NCBI GenBank assembly: GCA_023701285.1
Contig: JAMPXH010000035.1
Span: 1-34,919 of the forward strand
From: Candidatus Didemnitutus sp.
GTDB lineage: Bacteria > Verrucomicrobiota > Verrucomicrobiia > Opitutales > Opitutaceae
Direction of reading: 5' to 3'
Length of the DNA stretch: 34,919 bases
The notes below the pieces were generated by a model that searched no databases, had not been told where the DNA came from, and was given only the letters and a program-made list of their open reading frames with translations. The position numbers were made by a program, and so were the translations under genes. Of the stretch, positions 22,418-29,280 are shown piece after piece; the stretch's first letter is position 1, and each line of letters opens with the position of its first letter.

Positions 22418-23602
22418 GTGACCACGCCTCCGACCGTCCCGCAAATCTTCGCCGCCGCGCTGCGGCTCGGGTGCACCTCGTTCGGCGGGCCGGTCGCGCA
22501 CCTCGCCTACTTCCGGCGCGATTACGTGGAGCGACGCGGCTGGTTGAGCGATCAGGACTACGCCGAGCTCGTGGCGCTGTGCCAGTTCCTGCCCGGGCCG
22601 GCGAGCAGCCAGGCGGGCTTCGGCATCGGCTACCGACTGCAAGGCTGGGCCGGCGGTCTGGCGGCGTGGGTGGGCTTCACGCTGCCGTCGGCGGTGCTGA
22701 TGATCGGCTTCGCGCTCGGCCTGTCACGGCTGGACGACCTTGCGTCGTCGGGCTGGCTGCACGGCCTGAAACTCGCCGCGATCGCGGTCGTCGCGCACGC
22801 CGTGATCGCGATGTGGCGCGCGCTGGCGCCGGATGCGGTGCGCTCCGCCTTCGTCGTGGTGGGCGCGGCGGCTTTGCTCGCGTGGCCGCAGGCCTGGGTG
22901 CAGGTCGCGGTGCTCGCGCTCGGCGCGGGCGCGGGGTGGCTCGCGTTGCGGCGCGATCACGCGACCGCAGCGAAGTCCGCCGTGGAAATCGGTTCCGCTC
23001 CGGGCTCGCTGCGCGCTTCCGTGCTGCTGTTCGCAGGGTTTCTCGTGCCGCTGTTGATGCTCCCGGTGCTCGCGCGCGAGGCGACTGTCTGGCCTTTGCA
23101 ACTCGCCGACACCTTCTACCGCACCGGCGCGCTGGTCTTCGGCGGCGGTCACACCGTGCTGCCCTTGCTTGAGCGCGAACTCGTGGTGCCGGGCGGCATC
23201 ACGCCCGATCAGTTTCTCGCGGGTTACGGCGCCGCGCAGGCGATGCCGGGGCCGCTCTTCACCTTCGCGGGTTACCTCGGCGCCGTGCAACACGGCGTGG
23301 CCGGCGGAGTGTGGGCCTTGGCGTGGATTTTTTTGCCCGGCTTGCTGCTCGTCCCGGTGGCGCTGCCGGTGTGGAACCGGTTGCGCCAACAGGCCGCGAT
23401 GCAGGCGGCGCTGCGCGGGGCGAATGCCACCGTGGTGGGCCTGTTGCTCGCGGCGTTGTTGCCGCCGCTCGGAACGGTGGCCGGGCGCGACTGGCTTTCC
23501 GCGCTGCTGACCTTGGCGGGTTTTGCACTGCTGCATGTGCCGCGCGTGCCGGCCTGGGCCGTGGTGCTCGCTTGCGCCGCGGCCGGCGCGATGCTGGCCT
23601 GA
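22418..23602 (+). CDS. chrA: Chromate transporter ChrA family protein
   Basis: CHR-family proteins are inner-membrane transporters, best known for chromate efflux. The 394-aa product is the two-domain form. The first half has 'LRLGCTSFGGPVAHLAYFRRDYVERRGWLSDQDYAE' (in part) and 'CQFLPGPASSQAGF'. The second has 'RTGALVFGGGHTVLPLLERE' and 'YGAAQAMPGPLFTFAGYLG'. These paired FGGP/PGP motifs define the family, and multiple hydrophobic helices lie between them. The start is GTG 22418. The next gene begins 4 nt after its stop, so the two are probably co-translated. Substrate is inferred from the family; sulfate-like oxyanions are possible. Confidence 0.93.
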   Translation: MTTPPTVPQIFAAALRLGCTSFGGPVAHLAYFRRDYVERRGWLSDQDYAELVALCQFLPGPASSQAGFGIGYRLQGWAGGLAAWVGFTLPSAVLMIGFALGLSRLDDLASSGWLHGLKLAAIAVVAHAVIAMWRALAPDAVRSAFVVVGAAALLAWPQAWVQVAVLALGAGAGWLALRRDHATAAKSAVEIGSAPGSLRASVLLFAGFLVPLLMLPVLAREATVWPLQLADTFYRTGALVFGGGHTVLPLLERELVVPGGITPDQFLAGYGAAQAMPGPLFTFAGYLGAVQHGVAGGVWALAWIFLPGLLLVPVALPVWNRLRQQAAMQAALRGANATVVGLLLAALLPPLGTVAGRDWLSALLTLAGFALLHVPRVPAWAVVLACAAAGAMLA

Positions 23603-24822: not shown

Positions 24823-25272
24823 TTGAGCCGAATCAAGCTTCGCCGGGAAATCGCTTGCCCCGCGAGGCCGACGCGCGCCACCGTGCGCGTGTTGCGCCGC
24901 CACGTCTCAGTTTTCGCGCTCGTTCTCGCCTGGCTCTTCGCCAACGGCGCGGTGTGGAACATCGTGCAGGTGGTGGCGTGGGCGAAGATGTTCCAGGACT
25001 ACGCCCAAGTCATGCCGGTGGACGAGGCGCTGCGCGTCACCTTCGAGGGTGAAGCGTGCCAGCTCTGCCATGTCGCGCAGAGCGGCGCCGACACGGCGCG
25101 CGAACAGTTGCCGCAAAGCGACTCCTTCGGCGGCAACGACCGTCTGCTCCTTGTTTTCCAGGCCGCGCCGGCCGTCGTCGTGACGGCGCCGGACTTCGCC
25201 TGGCCGGGCCTCGTGCACGAGGCCGGCCTCACGCGCACCGACGCGGTGCCCGTGCCTCCGCCGCGCGCCTGA
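24823..25272 (+). CDS. Small DUF2946-like protein with CxxC motif
   Basis: The product is up to 149 aa. It has a basic N-terminus and a hydrophobic signal/anchor ('VFALVLAWLFANGAVWNIV'), then a short domain with 'EACQLCHVAQSGAD', the CxLC pattern seen in DUF2946 proteins. Members of that family are commonly encoded beside TonB-dependent copper receptors, as here, suggesting a metal-related periplasmic role. The start is uncertain: the longest reading uses TTG 24823, while GTG 24883 would begin right at the signal segment (MRVLRRHVSVFA) and may be the true one. Family assignment is by pattern, not alignment. Confidence 0.75.
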   Translation: MSRIKLRREIACPARPTRATVRVLRRHVSVFALVLAWLFANGAVWNIVQVVAWAKMFQDYAQVMPVDEALRVTFEGEACQLCHVAQSGADTAREQLPQSDSFGGNDRLLLVFQAAPAVVVTAPDFAWPGLVHEAGLTRTDAVPVPPPRA

Positions 25273-25400
25273 GGCGCGCCGCTCCGTTCCACGCCAATCC
25301 ACCGACGCGCGCCGTTTGCGCCGCGTCTCTGGCGTTCCTCCGCCGTCGCGCCGTCGCGCGCGCTGCGGTCCTTGTCCGTCCGCATCCCTTTCCCTTTTCC

Positions 25401-27491
25401 ATGCCCTCCATTTTCTCCTCCCGTCTCTGTCTTGCACTCTCACTCGGCACCCTGGGCCTGACCGCCCGGCTCGCCGCCGCACCCGCGACCGAAGGTCCGC
25501 CGGTGGAATTGCCTCCGGTCGTGGTCACCACGCCCAAGTCCTCGCAACCGCTCGTCGTCGTCGCTGATCCGCGCGCGCCCGCCCAACCCGTGCCGGCGCA
25601 CGACGGGGCCGACGCGCTGAAATCCGTCCCCGGCTTCGCCGTCATCCGCAAGGGCGGCACCGACGGCGACCCCGTCCTCCGCGGCCTCGCCGGCTCGCGC
25701 CTCGGCGTGCAGATCGACGGCCAGCACATCTTCGGCGGCTGCGGCAACCGCATGGACCCGCCCACCGCCTACGTCTTCCCCGCCGCCTACGACCGCATCA
25801 CGATCGTGAAGGGCCCGCAGTCCGTCCTGCACGGTCCGGGCAACAGCGCCGGCGTCGTGCTCTTCGAGCGTTCCTATCGCCGCCTCGCGCAAAACGAGGC
25901 CGCGCTCTACGGCTCGCTCACCGCAGGCAGCTTCGGCCGCTTCGACGCCGTCGCCGATGTCCGCGCCGGCACGCCGGCGTGGCAGGTCCGCGCCACCGGC
26001 ACCGTGACCCGCGCCGACGATTACGAGGACGGCGCCGGCCGCTCCGTCCACAGCGCCTACGAACGCTGGAGCGCCAACGCCGCGCTCGCCTGGACGCCCG
26101 ACGCGCACACCTTCGTCGAACTCTCCGCCGCCGCGAGCGACGGCGAGGCTGCCTACGCCGACCGTGCGATGGACGGCGTGAAATTCGCCCGCGACAACTA
26201 CGCGCTGCGCCTGCGTCGCGAACAGCTCTCGCCGCTCGTCTCCGCGGCTGAGCTCCGCGCGTTCCACAACTACGTCGACCACGTGATGGACAACTACTCG
26301 CTCCGGCCGTTCGCCGCGTCGGCGATGATGCCCAACCCCTCCGTCTCGAACCCCGACCGCGAGACGCGCGGCGCCGTCGCGCAACTCGAACTGCTCCCGC
26401 TCGACTCGCTCCGCGTCACACTCGGCGCCGACACGCAGACGAACACGCACACGCTCCGCTCGTCGATGAACCAAACCACGATGCCCTATGAGACGAAGGC
26501 CCGCGTGCGCGATGCACGCTTCGCACAACGCGGCCTCTTCGGGGAGGCCGCCGCCACGCTCGCACCGGGACACCGCCTCTTCGCCGGCGCCCGTCTCGAC
26601 CGCTGGGAGGCAACCGATTCCCGCAACGCCGTCGCGCTCTCGATGATGAGCACCGCGCCGAATCCGAGCGCCGGCCGTGTGCGCACGAGCGATCTCGCCA
26701 GCGGCTTTGTCCGTTATGAGCACGACCTCGCTGCCGCGGAGCGCGCGCCGGTAACGCTCTTCGCCGGCCTCGGCCGCGTGCAGCGCTTCCCGGATTACTG
26801 GGAGCTGATCAAGAACGAGAGCGCCACGAGCGTCAGCGCCTTCGGCACCGAGCCGGAGACGACGACGCAGCTCGACCTCGGCGCGCTCTGGCGCACGGGC
26901 GCGCTCGAGTTGAGCCTCTCGGCCTTCGCCGCGCGGATCGACGACTTCATCCTCGTGCAAAGCGCCTTCGCCAAACCGGCGGGCATGATGGGCACGCGCG
27001 CGGCGGTCATCACGCGCAACATCGACGCCACCACCCGCGGTGGCGAGGCCGGCCTCGCGTGGCGCTTCGCGACTGATTGGAAGTTCGACGCTTCACTCGC
27101 CTACGTGCGCGGCGAGAACGACACCGACGCGCGCCCGCTCGCGCAGATCCCGCCGCTCGAGGCGCGCCTCGCCCTCGCCTACACGCGGCCGACGTGGTCC
27201 GCCGGCGCGCTCGTCCGCGCCGTCGACGCGCAGGACCGCATCGCGCTCAACCAGGGCAACATCGTCGGCCAGGATCTCGGCCGCAGCGCGGGCTTCGCGG
27301 TGTTTTCGCTGCACGGCAGCTGGAAACCCACCGCCCGCACGCGCCTGTCCGCGGGCGTCGACAACCTCTCCGATCGCGCCTACGCCGAGCACCTCAGCAA
27401 GGCCGGCGCGATGATCGCCGGCTTCGTGCAGACCACCCGCGTCAACGAGCCCGGCCGCACCTTCTGGGTGAAACTCGACGCCTCCTACTGA
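25401..27491 (+). CDS. TonB-dependent copper receptor (OprC/NosA type)
   Basis: This is an outer-membrane TonB-dependent receptor of 696 aa with a signal peptide (about 1-26, ending RLAAAPA). The plug domain has 'DALKSVPGFAVIRKGGTDGD' and 'PVLRGLAGSRLGVQIDGQ'. Copper-receptor signatures are present: CxxxM in 'GGCGNRMDPPTAYVFP' (Cys114, Met118) and an HxM in 'YVDHVMDNYSLRP'. In Pseudomonas OprC the equivalent pairs bind copper. The C-terminus ends in an aromatic-terminated barrel strand ('RTFWVKLDASY'). It is flanked by the DUF2946-like gene and two metal-motif proteins. The start is ATG 25401; in-frame sequence upstream is not signal-like. Confidence 0.95.
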   Translation: MPSIFSSRLCLALSLGTLGLTARLAAAPATEGPPVELPPVVVTTPKSSQPLVVVADPRAPAQPVPAHDGADALKSVPGFAVIRKGGTDGDPVLRGLAGSRLGVQIDGQHIFGGCGNRMDPPTAYVFPAAYDRITIVKGPQSVLHGPGNSAGVVLFERSYRRLAQNEAALYGSLTAGSFGRFDAVADVRAGTPAWQVRATGTVTRADDYEDGAGRSVHSAYERWSANAALAWTPDAHTFVELSAAASDGEAAYADRAMDGVKFARDNYALRLRREQLSPLVSAAELRAFHNYVDHVMDNYSLRPFAASAMMPNPSVSNPDRETRGAVAQLELLPLDSLRVTLGADTQTNTHTLRSSMNQTTMPYETKARVRDARFAQRGLFGEAAATLAPGHRLFAGARLDRWEATDSRNAVALSMMSTAPNPSAGRVRTSDLASGFVRYEHDLAAAERAPVTLFAGLGRVQRFPDYWELIKNESATSVSAFGTEPETTTQLDLGALWRTGALELSLSAFAARIDDFILVQSAFAKPAGMMGTRAAVITRNIDATTRGGEAGLAWRFATDWKFDASLAYVRGENDTDARPLAQIPPLEARLALAYTRPTWSAGALVRAVDAQDRIALNQGNIVGQDLGRSAGFAVFSLHGSWKPTARTRLSAGVDNLSDRAYAEHLSKAGAMIAGFVQTTRVNEPGRTFWVKLDASY

Positions 27492-27560
27492 CCCATTCCG
27501 CGAGACGGCGCGGCGCACTTTCGCTCGCGCCGCCGCGCCTGACCCGTTCTGCTGCCGCCC

Positions 27561-28808
27561 ATGACACGCTTCCACGCCGCGTTGTTGTTCTGCCTGGCTC
27601 CGCTCGTTGCCGTCGCCGTCACGGTGCGCGAGCTTCCCTCGCCCGCCGGTCCAGGCGCGCTGGGCTCCTCGCTCAGCGCGACGCCGGACGGCTCGGTCCT
27701 GCTCTCCTGGCTCGAACCGCGCGCAGGCGCGGTCGATTCCTGGCAGCTGAAATTCAGCCGGCTCGACGCCGCCGCGCTGCGCTGGAGCGAGCCGCGGACC
27801 ATCGCGGGCGGCACCGGCTGGTTCGTCAACTGGGCGGATTTCCCCAGCGTGACCCCGCTTGGCAACGGCCACCTGCTGGCGATCTGGTTCGTCGAAAACC
27901 AGCCCGCAGCCGGCGCGACGGGCGATCACGGTGACGGTTACCGCGCCGTCACCAGCCTGAGCGCGGACGACGGCCAAACCTGGCGCGACCCGCAGCCGCT
28001 GACGGGCGAGAGCGGCGCGACGGAGTTCGCCGCCGCGCTTGCGCTCGGGCGAAACGAACGGGCGCTGGTCGCGTGGCTCGACGGCCGGCAGCGCTCCGCG
28101 ACGGCACACGGTCACGAACATGCGCACGACGCCGGCGATGCGCAGGCGCTCTACGCGCAGACCTTGCTGGCCTCCGGCCCCGACCGGAAAGTCGACGGCT
28201 CCGTCTGCGACTGTTGCCAGCTCTCGCTCGTGCGCGTGGGCGACGAGGCCTTGCTCGCCTACCGCGGTCGCACGGCCGGCGAAGTGCGCGACATCCGTCT
28301 CGCCCGCTGGCGCGACGGCGAGTGGTCCGAGCCGCGGATGTTGCACGACGACGGCTGGGAGATCGCCGCCTGCCCGGTGAACGGCCCGCGGCTCGCCGCG
28401 CACGGCCGCACCGTGGCCGCGGTCTGGTTCACCGGCGCGCAGGGCCGGCCGCGCGTGCAGGCAAAGCTCTCGACCGACGGCGGCGAAACCTTCGGCCCCG
28501 CGCACCGGCTCGATCTCGGCCGCCCGCAGGGACGCGTCGACGCCGTCGTGCTGCCCGATGGGCGCGCCGTTCTCACCTGGCTCGAAAACCGCCCGCGCGA
28601 CGGCACGACGAACGCCGGCGGACTCTACCTGCGCCAGCTCGACGCCGCCGGCCAGCTCGGCGAACCGGTGTTGCTCGCCGACAGCTCGACCGCGCGCGCC
28701 AGCGGGTTTCCCCGCCTCGCCGTGCTGGGCGATGGCCGGCTCGTCCTCAGCCACACCCTCGCCGGCCCGACCTCGCGGGTTGCCACCTTGCTCCTCGACC
28801 TGAAATGA
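27561..28808 (+). CDS. Secreted sialidase-like beta-propeller protein with His-rich loop and CDCC motif
   Basis: The 415-aa product has a signal peptide (about 1-20) and repeated beta-propeller blades of the BNR/sialidase type ('TSLSADDGQTWRDPQPL', 'AKLSTDGGETFGPAHRL'). Sialidase catalysis is doubtful, since no clear FRIP-type arginine motif is seen. Two features suggest metal binding: 'TAHGHEHAHDAG' (about 181-192) and 'VDGSVCDCCQLSLVRVG' with CDCC at 216-219, plus a further Cys271. It sits 69 nt after the copper receptor and overlaps the CusF-like gene by 4 bp. I infer a periplasmic or surface copper-related role. Confidence 0.85.
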   Translation: MTRFHAALLFCLAPLVAVAVTVRELPSPAGPGALGSSLSATPDGSVLLSWLEPRAGAVDSWQLKFSRLDAAALRWSEPRTIAGGTGWFVNWADFPSVTPLGNGHLLAIWFVENQPAAGATGDHGDGYRAVTSLSADDGQTWRDPQPLTGESGATEFAAALALGRNERALVAWLDGRQRSATAHGHEHAHDAGDAQALYAQTLLASGPDRKVDGSVCDCCQLSLVRVGDEALLAYRGRTAGEVRDIRLARWRDGEWSEPRMLHDDGWEIAACPVNGPRLAAHGRTVAAVWFTGAQGRPRVQAKLSTDGGETFGPAHRLDLGRPQGRVDAVVLPDGRAVLTWLENRPRDGTTNAGGLYLRQLDAAGQLGEPVLLADSSTARASGFPRLAVLGDGRLVLSHTLAGPTSRVATLLLDLK

Positions 28809-29224
28809 ATAACCTCCATCCCATGAAAATCCGACTGCCCCTGCTGTTTTCCGTCCTCCTCGCGCTGCTCAGCCCCGCCGCGCTTCTCGCCGCCGACAAG
28901 GCCAGGAATTGCGGCTGTGACTGCTGCAAGGGCAAGGAAGTCTGCTGCTGCCACGCCGATGAAGCCGCCACTGCCGCGGCGCCCGCACCCGGTTTCCACG
29001 CGCTCACCGGTGTCGTCACGAACGTCCTCGCCGAGCGCCAGGCGCTGATGGTGAAGCACGACGAAATCCCCGGCGTGATGAAGGCGATGACGATGATGTT
29101 CCTCGTCGAGCCCGAGGTCCTCGCGACCGTGAAGAAGGGCGACGCGATCAAGGCGCACATGGGCCGCGACGAGAACAACAAGTGGATCCTGCGCCACGTG
29201 CAGGTCGTCCCGCCGGCGAAGTAA
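28805..29224 (+). CDS. Cys-rich CusF-like copper-binding periplasmic protein
   Basis: The product is 139 aa (or 133 aa from ATG 28823, which begins directly at the signal peptide MKIRLPLLFSVLLALL). After the signal comes a Cys-rich segment, 'NCGCDCCKGKEVCCCHAD', with seven Cys in 14 residues. The CusF-like domain follows: 'FHALTGVVTNV', 'LMVKHDEIPGVMKAMTMMF', 'LATVKKGDAIKAHMG' and 'WILRHVQVV'. His85, Met92, Met95 and Met97 match the copper ligands of the family, with Met in place of the CusF tryptophan. The extra Cys cluster is unusual for this family. The overlapping ATGA with the preceding gene suggests coupling. Confidence 0.9.
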   Translation: MNNLHPMKIRLPLLFSVLLALLSPAALLAADKARNCGCDCCKGKEVCCCHADEAATAAAPAPGFHALTGVVTNVLAERQALMVKHDEIPGVMKAMTMMFLVEPEVLATVKKGDAIKAHMGRDENNKWILRHVQVVPPAK

Positions 29225-29255
29225 GCGCCACGCCAATCCAGACGAAGCCGCGACG

Positions 29256-29280
29256 GGCGGGGCGCAGGCCCCGCCTTTTT
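29256..29280 (+). terminator. Intrinsic terminator of the copper gene run
   Basis: GGCGGGGC (29256-29263) pairs perfectly with GCCCCGCC (29268-29275) around a 4-nt GCAG loop, followed at once by five T. It lies 31 nt after the CusF-like stop codon and is the clearest rho-independent terminator on the plus strand. Confidence 0.92.

Follow-up and report, generated by a model that had tools for sequence, protein, structure and literature searches.

Gene Content and Organization of the Locus

The window analyzed here (the whole stretch of 34,919 nt) carries four consecutive plus-strand genes at coordinates 24823 to 29224, as a preliminary description made from the sequence had stated: a leader ORF, oprC, a beta-propeller gene and a CusF-domain gene. 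The longest leader frame (24823-25272) opens at TTG 24823, with the likely start at 24883-24892 (candidates TTG 24892, GTG 24889 or GTG 24883), so that the product is 126 to 149 aa long according to the start chosen; its core, as delimited by an alignment of 34 leaders (A3), is 24892..25272. It is followed by oprC (25398..27491), the gene for a TonB-dependent copper receptor, by the propeller gene (27561..28808), whose product has a signal-like N-terminus, and by the CusF-domain gene (28805..29224), whose first 4 nt are shared with the end of the propeller gene. The single terminator previously placed at the end of the module is there as an intrinsic terminator-like hairpin with a T tail (29255..29276, plus strand; 9 pairs, 8 of them GC); as such sites showed no excess in the scanned region (5 found vs 5.5 expected from shuffles), the case for this hairpin rests on its own quality. 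The upstream context outside the module includes a chromate transporter gene (22418..23602, plus strand; TIGR00937, 312.9 bits), and this apart, no efflux pump or multicopper oxidase family was found among the ten window proteins scanned. We conclude that the four genes and the terminator-like hairpin are a real copper module. All of the motifs on which the preliminary description had relied are present, and CxLC, CxxxM-HxM, CDCC and H...MTM are kept in relatives, whereas HGHEHAHD is not.

The OprC Receptor and the CusF-Domain Protein

The second gene encodes, by sequence criteria, a true OprC. Its product scored 698.8 bits against the OprC/NosA model TIGR01778 (curated cut-off 472.45) and matched the sequence of the OprC crystal structure with an E-value of 7.3e-184; the four CxxxM-HxM ligands (C116, M120, H296 and M298 in the numbering of P0002), the motifs that had suggested an OprC-type receptor in the first place, align with those of the crystal-structure sequence and are conserved in 45/45 OprC loci. 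These 45 loci came from 44 genomes, G061 having given two, and G077 was left out because it was over the cut-off only with neighbours in frame. OprC is described as an importer (PMC8610252), and the P. aeruginosa oprC is described there in an operon with a FoxB-like putative reductase gene, whereas that of the window is followed by the propeller and CusF genes.

The product of the fourth gene scored 40.2 bits against CusF_Ec (PF11604; gathering cut-off 27), in keeping with its earlier labelling as CusF-like, and the H...MTM motif that accompanied that label recurs in 45 of 50 distinct CusF-domain stretches of at least 50 bits. E. coli CusF binds metal through a His, a Trp and two Met, with the Trp acting as a metal cap; the His and both Met are aligned in gene 4, whereas the Trp is not kept. 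A further departure from E. coli CusF is an added N-terminal cluster of seven Cys, NCGCDCCKGKEVCCC (28907-28951), with similar clusters in several relatives.

A direction towards copper uptake is well supported by the predicted OprC with intact ligands, by CusF and by fusions between propeller and CusF genes described below. CusF is known from an efflux system, as reflected in its PDB name as well, and this, together with the Cys cluster of the CusF-domain protein, would suit a module protecting against copper excess by binding or export rather than import; we consider this improbable, since all ligands of the importer OprC are kept and the ten window proteins scanned include neither of the families named above.

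A Beta-Propeller with Conserved Cysteines

Gene 3, which had been described as a His/Cys beta-propeller, does encode a beta-propeller, probably one of seven blades. Its product scored 42.3 bits against the BNR_2 profile (cut-off 31.4) and was modelled by AlphaFold2 with a pLDDT of 91.2. The model matched the folds of sialidases, PLL lectins and a rhamnose-glucuronate lyase, the best matches by Z being CylK and PLL lectins (Z 29.6), which we take to be seven-bladed. The likeness to BNR_2 or sialidase-like propellers is one of fold and profile, the sole match among PDB sequences being a chance one (E 1.4), and the window propeller differs from them in carrying CxCC and CPVNG motifs and in its best Z-scores being to CylK and PLL lectins. 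The first motif, VCDCC (28203..28217, plus strand), holds C216, C218 and C219, and the second, CPVNG (28371..28385, plus strand), holds C271. All four cysteines are invariant in both of our alignments: A1 (17 sequences), composed of P0003 and 16 of its 19 strongest whole-protein relatives, the short matches L044, L045 and L046 being left out, and A2 (74 sequences), composed of P0003 and 73 of 80 loci (L051, L059, L071, L101, L104, L107 and L111 left out), where the invariance is partly by construction because the 80 loci were found with patterns containing CPVNG or VC[DT]CC, one pattern sufficing per locus. Two propeller-like fusions (L044 and L046) among the 19 relative loci have lost the cysteines. 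The histidine-rich HGHEHAHD (28107..28130, plus strand), in contrast to the CDCC named alongside it in the preliminary description, belongs to a variable insertion and shows no conservation in A1; we dropped it as a functional copper site.

The propeller lies close to CusF in 18 of the 19 relative loci, and the two occupy one stop-to-stop frame at 24 loci (L043 stands twice in a list of 25), including at least two duplicates. The family as a whole is present in at least eight phyla (as labelled). At 62 loci of propellers from other groups neither a CusF match nor an OprC match of more than 300 bits was found, and thioredoxin-like proteins were the commonest nearest neighbours (16-17 of 104; on either side of a locus the closest called gene was taken, excluding those of <85 aa, of >850 aa or without whole codons); we count the absence of a CusF/OprC link in these 62 loci, like the loss of the cysteines in L044 and L046, against the operon model proposed below. 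The fold matches, and the annotation of relatives on Roseobacter plasmids as 'sialidase family protein', would fit a glycan-active or lectin-like propeller that merely shares the locus. We give this reading little credence in view of the single-frame fusions to CusF, the 18 of 19 loci near CusF, and the copper genes found within 4.5 kb of the propeller in all three Roseobacter plasmid loci opened, of 63 matching records. We found no description of the function of this propeller in the open-access PMC literature, supplementary lists aside, which agrees with the earlier remark that its role is undescribed.

Co-Occurrence of the Four Genes

The conservation of gene set and order, which the preliminary description had named as its check, is borne out for parts of the module. 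The leader lies upstream of oprC, on the same strand and within 700 nt, in 38 of the 45 OprC loci. At three of the other loci (L162, L188 and L196) the contig extends only 25, 45 and 445 nt upstream, at L180 a leader is present 1,179 nt away, and at L167, L174 and L190 there was no leader within the stretch fetched. Against these figures and the propeller-CusF pairing stand lower counts at oprC: a CusF match was found within 6 kb, on either side and either strand, in 22 of 45 loci (three of them weak, at 30-42 bits, and two of those three on the other strand); the propeller was matched within 6 kb in 16 of 45 (one match of 26 bits). The leader and oprC are thus the conserved core of the module, and the full gene set and its order are not fixed.

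The Leader ORF

The preliminary description had taken the first gene for a DUF2946-like part of the copper module, and this assignment failed every DUF2946 profile test. Gene 1 (P0001) had no Pfam match at E≤0.1; the window leader had none at E≤10, nor was there a DUF2946 match at E≤10 among 34 leaders, and none of 200 genomes of the host's family had a DUF2946 protein over the cut-off, in a search whose Caulobacter positive control worked. These profile searches rule out DUF2946 membership of the leader. An hhalign comparison of the leader with DUF2946 gave a probability of 0.6 percent; since the search for a partner, in 11 genomes and then in 56 genomes of the same class, had yielded just one DUF2946 protein over the cut-off, a distant homology to CruR may still exist. 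Gene 1 is probably not a copper-handling protein.

The alignment of 34 leaders (A3) nevertheless upheld the CxLC motif noted earlier: both cysteines of CQLC (C56 and C59; 25057..25068, plus strand) are invariant, and we propose this CxxC as a copper-sensing site. A hydrophobic N-terminal stretch precedes it in the aligned leaders, as judged by eye, and the region that follows is variable as far as a proline motif at the C-terminus, PPPRA-stop in the window (25255..25272, plus strand), which we propose as a ribosome-arrest motif. CxxC together with PP[RKQ] near the stop was found in 98 of 101 leaders, the tail being missing in three; PPP[RK] occurs in 85 of the 101, the proline motif lies 0-8 residues from the stop, and its spacing from the CxxC is 59-65 residues in 79 of the 98 leaders with both motifs. 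L173, one of the 38 leaders ahead of oprC, has a frame that continues without the usual tail, and because it passes the usual end it was excluded from the 101-leader counts (tail, gap C>G, CGCG box and stop hairpin). Between two close relatives of the leader 21 of 29 base differences fall at third codon positions (16 codons synonymous, 10 not), a bias indicating that the leader is kept as a protein.

Leaders of this family share no Pfam match. They were found in 153 of 200 genomes of the host's family, in 97 of 387 genomes of its phylum and in 9 of 199 genomes of another phylum, labelled Planctomycetota; none were found in 198 genomes of the phylum of L077 or in 11 genomes from mixed other phyla, such empty results being by themselves weak proof of absence. 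A single match in 200 genomes of the phylum of L088 was a frame with three stops, which we judged spurious. At 60 further loci, hand-picked from the upper hit lists (40 within the family and 20 outside) and thus not random, with gene starts assigned by a script that frequently placed them too far upstream, 35 of the next genes carried a TonB plug and one each NosL, CusF, cytochrome c or DUF4198, while those with no known copper link were three with an N_methyl motif, two SBP_bac_10, one DJ-1/PfpI and one lactonase. A TonB-copper match at E≤1e-8 was obtained for 6 of the 60, most of the TonB receptors behind leaders being of unknown ligand. The next genes that have no known link to copper, the predominance of receptors of unknown ligand, the three leaders missing the tail and the frame of L173 are points that we count against the sensor model.

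Based on the CxxC, the proline motif at the stop codon and the position ahead of many different genes, the best reading of the leader is that of an arrest-peptide uORF which senses copper, analogous to CruR and CutF, rather than of a handling protein. An exported working protein, that is, a periplasmic copper chaperone whose proline tail is structural, would account for the hydrophobic N-terminal stretch and for the CxxC, a common copper site (PMC9426467). Such a chaperone is quite unlikely, however, given that the constants are the CxxC and a near-stop proline motif at near-constant spacing with a variable stretch between them, and that the gene precedes oprC at 38 of 45 loci and, elsewhere, many unrelated genes.

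Comparison with Known Copper-Responsive uORFs

CruR (DUF2946, PF11162), a copper-responsive uORF of Bordetella pertussis, is described as needed in cis, its regulation not being restored in trans (PMC9426467), and as undergoing arrest in vitro (PMC12992588). Like CruR, the leader is a short ORF ahead of a TonB-receptor gene, has a CxxC and a proline motif near its C-terminus, and is followed by a long C-rich gap before the receptor gene (162 nt for CruR, 125 nt in the window). Of the features that mark CruR it thus has the CxxC and the placement, with a long gap, ahead of metal-uptake or copper genes, and it lacks RAPP about 45 residues after the CxxC: it ends in PPP[RK], its spacing is about 63 residues vs 45, and it has no DUF2946 profile match. 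The failure to detect a relation to the one DUF2946 protein compared, the lack of RAPP and the different spacing were all counted against the sensor model. RAPP/RGPP uORFs ahead of TonB-related and copper-related genes have been reported from many phyla (PMC12992588), and the leader resembles them in being a small ORF that ends in an arrest-type motif and precedes TonB-receptor or copper genes; the published survey took RAPP and RGPP as its basis, neither of which is present in the window leader. CutF, which has a CxxxC and activates a multicopper oxidase (PMC9973294), shares with the leader a Cys motif, a proline-rich end, an export-type N-terminus and placement ahead of copper genes, and differs in its CxxxC (CxxC in the leader) and in the oxidase that it activates. 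The filters described for CutF-like ORFs were <150 aa, PP among the final 15 residues, a signal peptide and a next same-strand gene within 1,000 nt (PMC9973294); the leader has 126-149 aa, a PPPRA end, oprC 125 nt on and, by eye, a signal peptide. The main text of that paper, supplementary lists aside, makes no mention of Verrucomicrobiota. While copper-sensing uORFs are a published concept, we did not find the leader family in print, with no description in the open-access PMC literature (including PMC12914433, PMC10987492 and PMC13038864), supplementary lists aside.

The intergenic region between leader and oprC (25273..25397, plus strand; 57 C, 34 G, 28 T, 6 A) is 125 nt long, richer in C than in G and purine-poor, and is a candidate zone of Rho-dependent attenuation. 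The C>G excess after the leader (mean 0.102 for 101 leaders; controls, 51 genes, mean 0.056; one-sided p 0.005) speaks for the sensor model, its modest size against it. A conserved CGCG box after the leader stop was considered and rejected, there being no enrichment (23/101 vs 44/216 control genes). A 7-bp hairpin (25263..25279, plus strand) has the leader TGA stop as its loop, and stop-codon stems of at least 5 bp were found in 29 of 101 leaders vs 19 of 216 other genes; as the same test at eight offsets within leader sequences gave 12 to 22 of 101, the hairpin is only suggestive as a real feature. The segment 25240-25430 gave a better fold than shuffled sequences did (z -2.52; equalled by 4 of 200).

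This hairpin and this folding, and the fact that CutF ends in a proline-rich motif other than RAPP (PMC9973294), would be compatible with a copper uORF that works in the opposite or in another way, like CutF, and in which copper prolongs stalling and opens a stem-loop hiding the ribosome-binding site of the next gene. We regard this as rather unlikely, though less so than a chaperone: the genes behind leaders are mainly receptors (35 of 60, and oprC), expected to be repressed and not induced by copper, and the 125-nt gap taken alone folds hardly above chance (z -1.15; equalled by 30 of 200 shuffles).

Proposed Control of Copper Acquisition

We think it likely that the module is an operon for copper acquisition under the control of a nascent-peptide copper sensor. 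When copper is scarce, a ribosome translating the leader would stall on the C-terminal Pro-Pro-Pro-Arg, immediately ahead of the stop codon; the stall would let transcription or translation proceed into the genes for OprC, the propeller and CusF. Once enough copper is present it would bind the leader CxxC, which at about 63 residues from the arrest motif should already be outside the ribosome tunnel, and the arrest would be released; the downstream genes would then be turned off, through Rho termination in the C-rich gap or through RNA structure. Copper transport across the outer membrane would be the task of OprC, with the CusF-domain protein receiving the metal in the periplasm, where the CxCC and CPVNG cysteines of the propeller may help to receive, reduce or hand copper to CusF.

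Copper-responsive control by a nascent peptide is described as experimentally shown for CruR and CutF, both from Proteobacteria (PMC9426467, PMC9973294). We tentatively put forward, with a slight leaning against its holding in full, that an undescribed family of arrest peptides (CxxC and a terminal PPP[RK], not RAPP) controls genes for copper and other TonB-dependent uptake in much of Verrucomicrobiota and part of Planctomycetota (as labelled), and that the CxCC/CPVNG propeller is a new periplasmic copper-handling partner of CusF. Should the proposed mechanism hold for the leader, much of another phylum would perform this task with a peptide that looks unrelated and has another proline motif, and there would be a simple in vitro test of how a polyproline stall is released when metal binds outside the ribosome. 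In that case many TonB receptors whose ligand is unknown would also be marked as probably metal-controlled, given the TonB plug in 35 of 60 next genes. Fusions of the propeller to CusF, for their part, provide a first functional handle on a 'sialidase family protein' that is widespread. Among the second genes behind leaders, 33 of the 47 of at least 100 aa were scanned, 14 having been dropped as too distant or unlikely genes, and these included 12 CusF, 9 BNR_2, 4 PepSY_TM and 3 SCO1.

Gene content and conservation of the copper module

The four plus-strand genes claimed in the preliminary description were all found, in the order given there: a leader ORF (24823–25272 as the longest frame, 24892–25272 as aligned), oprC (25398–27491), a beta-propeller gene (27561–28808) and a CusF-domain gene (28805–29224), the last two overlapping by 4 nt and followed by a terminator-like hairpin (29255–29276). 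Our analysis indicates that this module is an operon for copper uptake, headed by an unusual leader. The reading of the second gene as an OprC-type receptor with CxxxM and HxM motifs was borne out; it scored 698.8 bits against TIGR01778 (cut-off 472.45) and matched the sequence of the OprC crystal structure (E-value 7.3e-184), the residues of both motifs coinciding in the alignment. The copper ligands of OprC, given as Cys143, Met147, His323 and Met325 in excerpts of PMC8610252, are retained as C, M, H and M in 45/45 OprC loci (44 besides that of the window; 44 genomes in total). TIGR01778 matches at E ≤ 0.001 occurred in 178 of 200 genomes of the host's family, only 45 of which had a match above the cut-off.

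The leader and oprC form the core of the gene set. A same-strand leader homolog lies within 700 nt upstream of oprC in 38/45 loci; in three of the seven others the contig extends just 25, 45 and 445 nt beyond oprC on that side, a fourth has its leader at a distance of 1,179 nt, and the sequence retrieved for the last three contains no leader. The set as a whole is not fixed: a CusF match within 6 kb of oprC, on any side or strand, was found in only 22/45 loci, and a propeller match, on the same terms, in only 16/45. The order seen in the window, with the propeller at most 200 nt from oprC and CusF behind it, recurred among the 45 loci only in L159 and L186, where one frame holds both propeller and CusF; a further relative, L028, also has a window-like order, with these as separate genes. 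A chromate-transporter-type gene (22418–23602) is located upstream of the window's leader; in the same-genus relatives L037, L039 and L040 such a gene is the leader's immediate upstream neighbor.

A leader family with a CxxC motif and a proline-rich end

The first gene had been described as DUF2946-like, a reading that we do not retain: it had no Pfam or NCBIfam match at E ≤ 0.1, and there were no DUF2946 matches among 34 leaders scanned at E ≤ 10, a scan in which no single Pfam family matched more than two leaders (best E-value 0.0017, for one member). DUF2946 was above its cut-off in 0/200 family genomes and below it in 22/200; one such below-cut-off match (G117:C715) is likewise followed by a TonB-receptor match. 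An alignment of the 34 leaders has nine invariant columns, including both CxxC cysteines as well as two of the terminal motif's prolines. CxxC together with PP[RKQ] near the stop was present in 98 of 101 leaders (a set omitting L173, whose frame continues past the usual end), with 0–8 residues following the motif, and the full PPP[RK] in 85/101. The leaders of two close relatives differ at 29 bases, 21 of them third codon positions, with 16 changed codons synonymous and 10 not.

Searches with the 34-leader alignment found the family in 153/200 family genomes, 97/387 genomes of the host's phylum and 9/199 genomes of the phylum of locus L075 (Planctomycetota by record title), besides one match, probably spurious as its frame is broken, among 200 genomes of the phylum of L088; there were none in 198 genomes of the phylum of L077 or in 11 mixed others. 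The window's own genome has a single copy.

The leader has the same plan as known copper uORFs. Excerpts of PMC9426467 describe CruR as a DUF2946 uORF, first in a copper TonB-receptor operon, in which copper is sensed by a CXXC, expression requires a C-terminal RAPP 45 residues from it, and copper leads to Rho-dependent termination ahead of the receptor gene; a later study, as excerpted, demonstrated the arrest in vitro and placed RAPP/RGPP uORFs before TonB-related and copper-related genes in many phyla (PMC12992588). CutF, which combines CxxxC with a proline-rich end, has the opposite sign to CruR (PMC9973294, in part). The window leader differs from CruR in its profile, in having no RAPP, and in its spacing, which is 59–65 residues from CxxC to PP[RKQ] in 79/98 leaders (range 58–82). 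Control by a uORF of this kind is a known principle; the leader family, its motif and its spacing are undescribed as far as our literature searches reach.

By analogy, we suggest that the leader acts as a copper-sensing uORF of the CruR/CutF plan. Copper would then repress the operon through the leader, a sign that we infer because uptake genes stand behind it. The 125-nt gap between leader and oprC contains 57 C, 34 G, 28 T and 6 A, and the C minus G fraction over the 120 nt past the stop averages 0.102 for 101 leaders versus 0.056 for 51 control genes (one-sided p 0.005), which lends modest support to a candidate Rho-type terminator. In the window a 7-bp hairpin has the leader's TGA stop as its loop; stems of at least 5 bp at the stop occur in 29/101 leaders versus 19/216 other genes, and in 12 to 22 of 101 at eight offsets in the same sequences.

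Genes behind the leader

We called by script, and then profile-scanned, the next same-strand gene behind 60 further leaders hand-picked from hit lists (40 from the family, 20 from other orders and classes). The first genes comprised TonB plug (35), Phenol_MetA_deg (5), N_methyl (3) and SBP_bac_10 (2), with DUF4198, DJ-1/PfpI, cytochrome c, NosL, YHS, CusF and lactonase, among others, once each; 6/60 had a TonB-copper match at E ≤ 1e-8. Second genes (33 chosen from 47) included CusF (12), BNR_2 (9), PepSY_TM (4) and SCO1 (3). From these tallies, the leader is constant while its cargo varies, consisting mostly of metal-uptake-type receptors and copper-delivery genes. CSVCGCS-like cysteine runs open several first genes (L247, L262 and L265, among L246–L305). 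Small ORFs of another kind, containing His/Cys and ending in RAPP/RGPP (C-termini GRAPPAA, PERGPPVSVA and PERGPPMMG), precede another TonB receptor type at L029 (2363–2740, minus strand), L034 (2362–2787, minus) and L053 (8576–8938, plus), in the last two directly behind propeller-CusF genes.

The CusF-domain protein and the propeller

The fourth gene proved CusF-like as proposed, scoring 40.2 bits against CusF_Ec (cut-off 27); aligned to E. coli CusF it retains the His and both Met but lacks the Trp. Among the 50 distinct CusF stretches that score at least 50 bits, 45 show the H...MTM pattern. In 13/50 stretches at least four Cys lie within the 40 residues preceding the domain, and in several of them the Cys form a block similar to NCGCACCKGKEVCCC. 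The NCGCDCCKGKEVCCC block ahead of the window's CusF domain (28907–28951) resembles a metallothionein and occurs again in a number of separate CusF proteins from relatives; the sole Pfam match across it is Orexin, below cut-off.

The propeller had a BNR_2 match (42.3 bits) and no relative among PDB sequences. Its AlphaFold2 model (74 sequences; pLDDT 91.2, pTM 0.91) has a predicted fold resembling CylK, PLL lectins and a rhamnose-glucuronate lyase (Z 28–30), the best of which are seven-bladed, and sialidases (Foldseek E-value 1.9e-11, TM 0.49). Residues invariant among the 74 sequences (from eight or more phyla, judged by record titles) include C216, C218, C219, C271, R235, E241, R243, D244, D264, W266, N274 and G275. 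For residues within CPVNG and VC[DT]CC this invariance is partly built in, as 73 of the 74 sequences come from loci found by patterns containing these motifs, although one pattern sufficed for each locus. An alignment of 17 sequences chosen without a pattern shows the same four cysteines to be invariant, and CDCC is thus borne out by conservation; HGHEHAHD, also put forward as a copper-type motif, falls within a variable insertion and is absent from all 16 relatives in that alignment.

The closest named relatives of the propeller belong to the Opitutaceae (Opitutus, Didemnitutus and Lacunisphaera). In 18/19 loci from Opitutaceae-type relatives a CusF match lies close to the propeller. Both profiles fall within one stop-to-stop frame in 24 loci, of which at least two are duplicates; seven fused C-termini were read directly. 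Two short fusions (L044:9208–10257 and L046:8512–9630) keep FRGR...RDIQVA but no longer have the cysteines of CxCC and CPVNG. Of the 62 propeller loci of other groups none had a CusF match, nor was there any OprC match scoring over 300 bits; thioredoxin-like proteins were the commonest nearest neighbors (16–17/104). Of 63 plasmid records matching the propeller, three Roseobacter-group loci were opened, and each has copper genes no more than 4.5 kb away: a copper oxidase and plastocyanin in the first, fragments of multicopper oxidase close to a mercury operon in the second, and CopC/CopD in the third. Based on the fusions and proximity to CusF and on these plasmid neighbors, we speculate that the propeller may receive or reduce copper and then pass it to CusF. 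At the proteobacterial loci L084, L088, L093 and L114, a TonB-receptor gene lies near the propeller gene on the opposite strand, accompanied in the last three by genes judged PepSY-like by eye, an arrangement that recalls CrtA copper operons.
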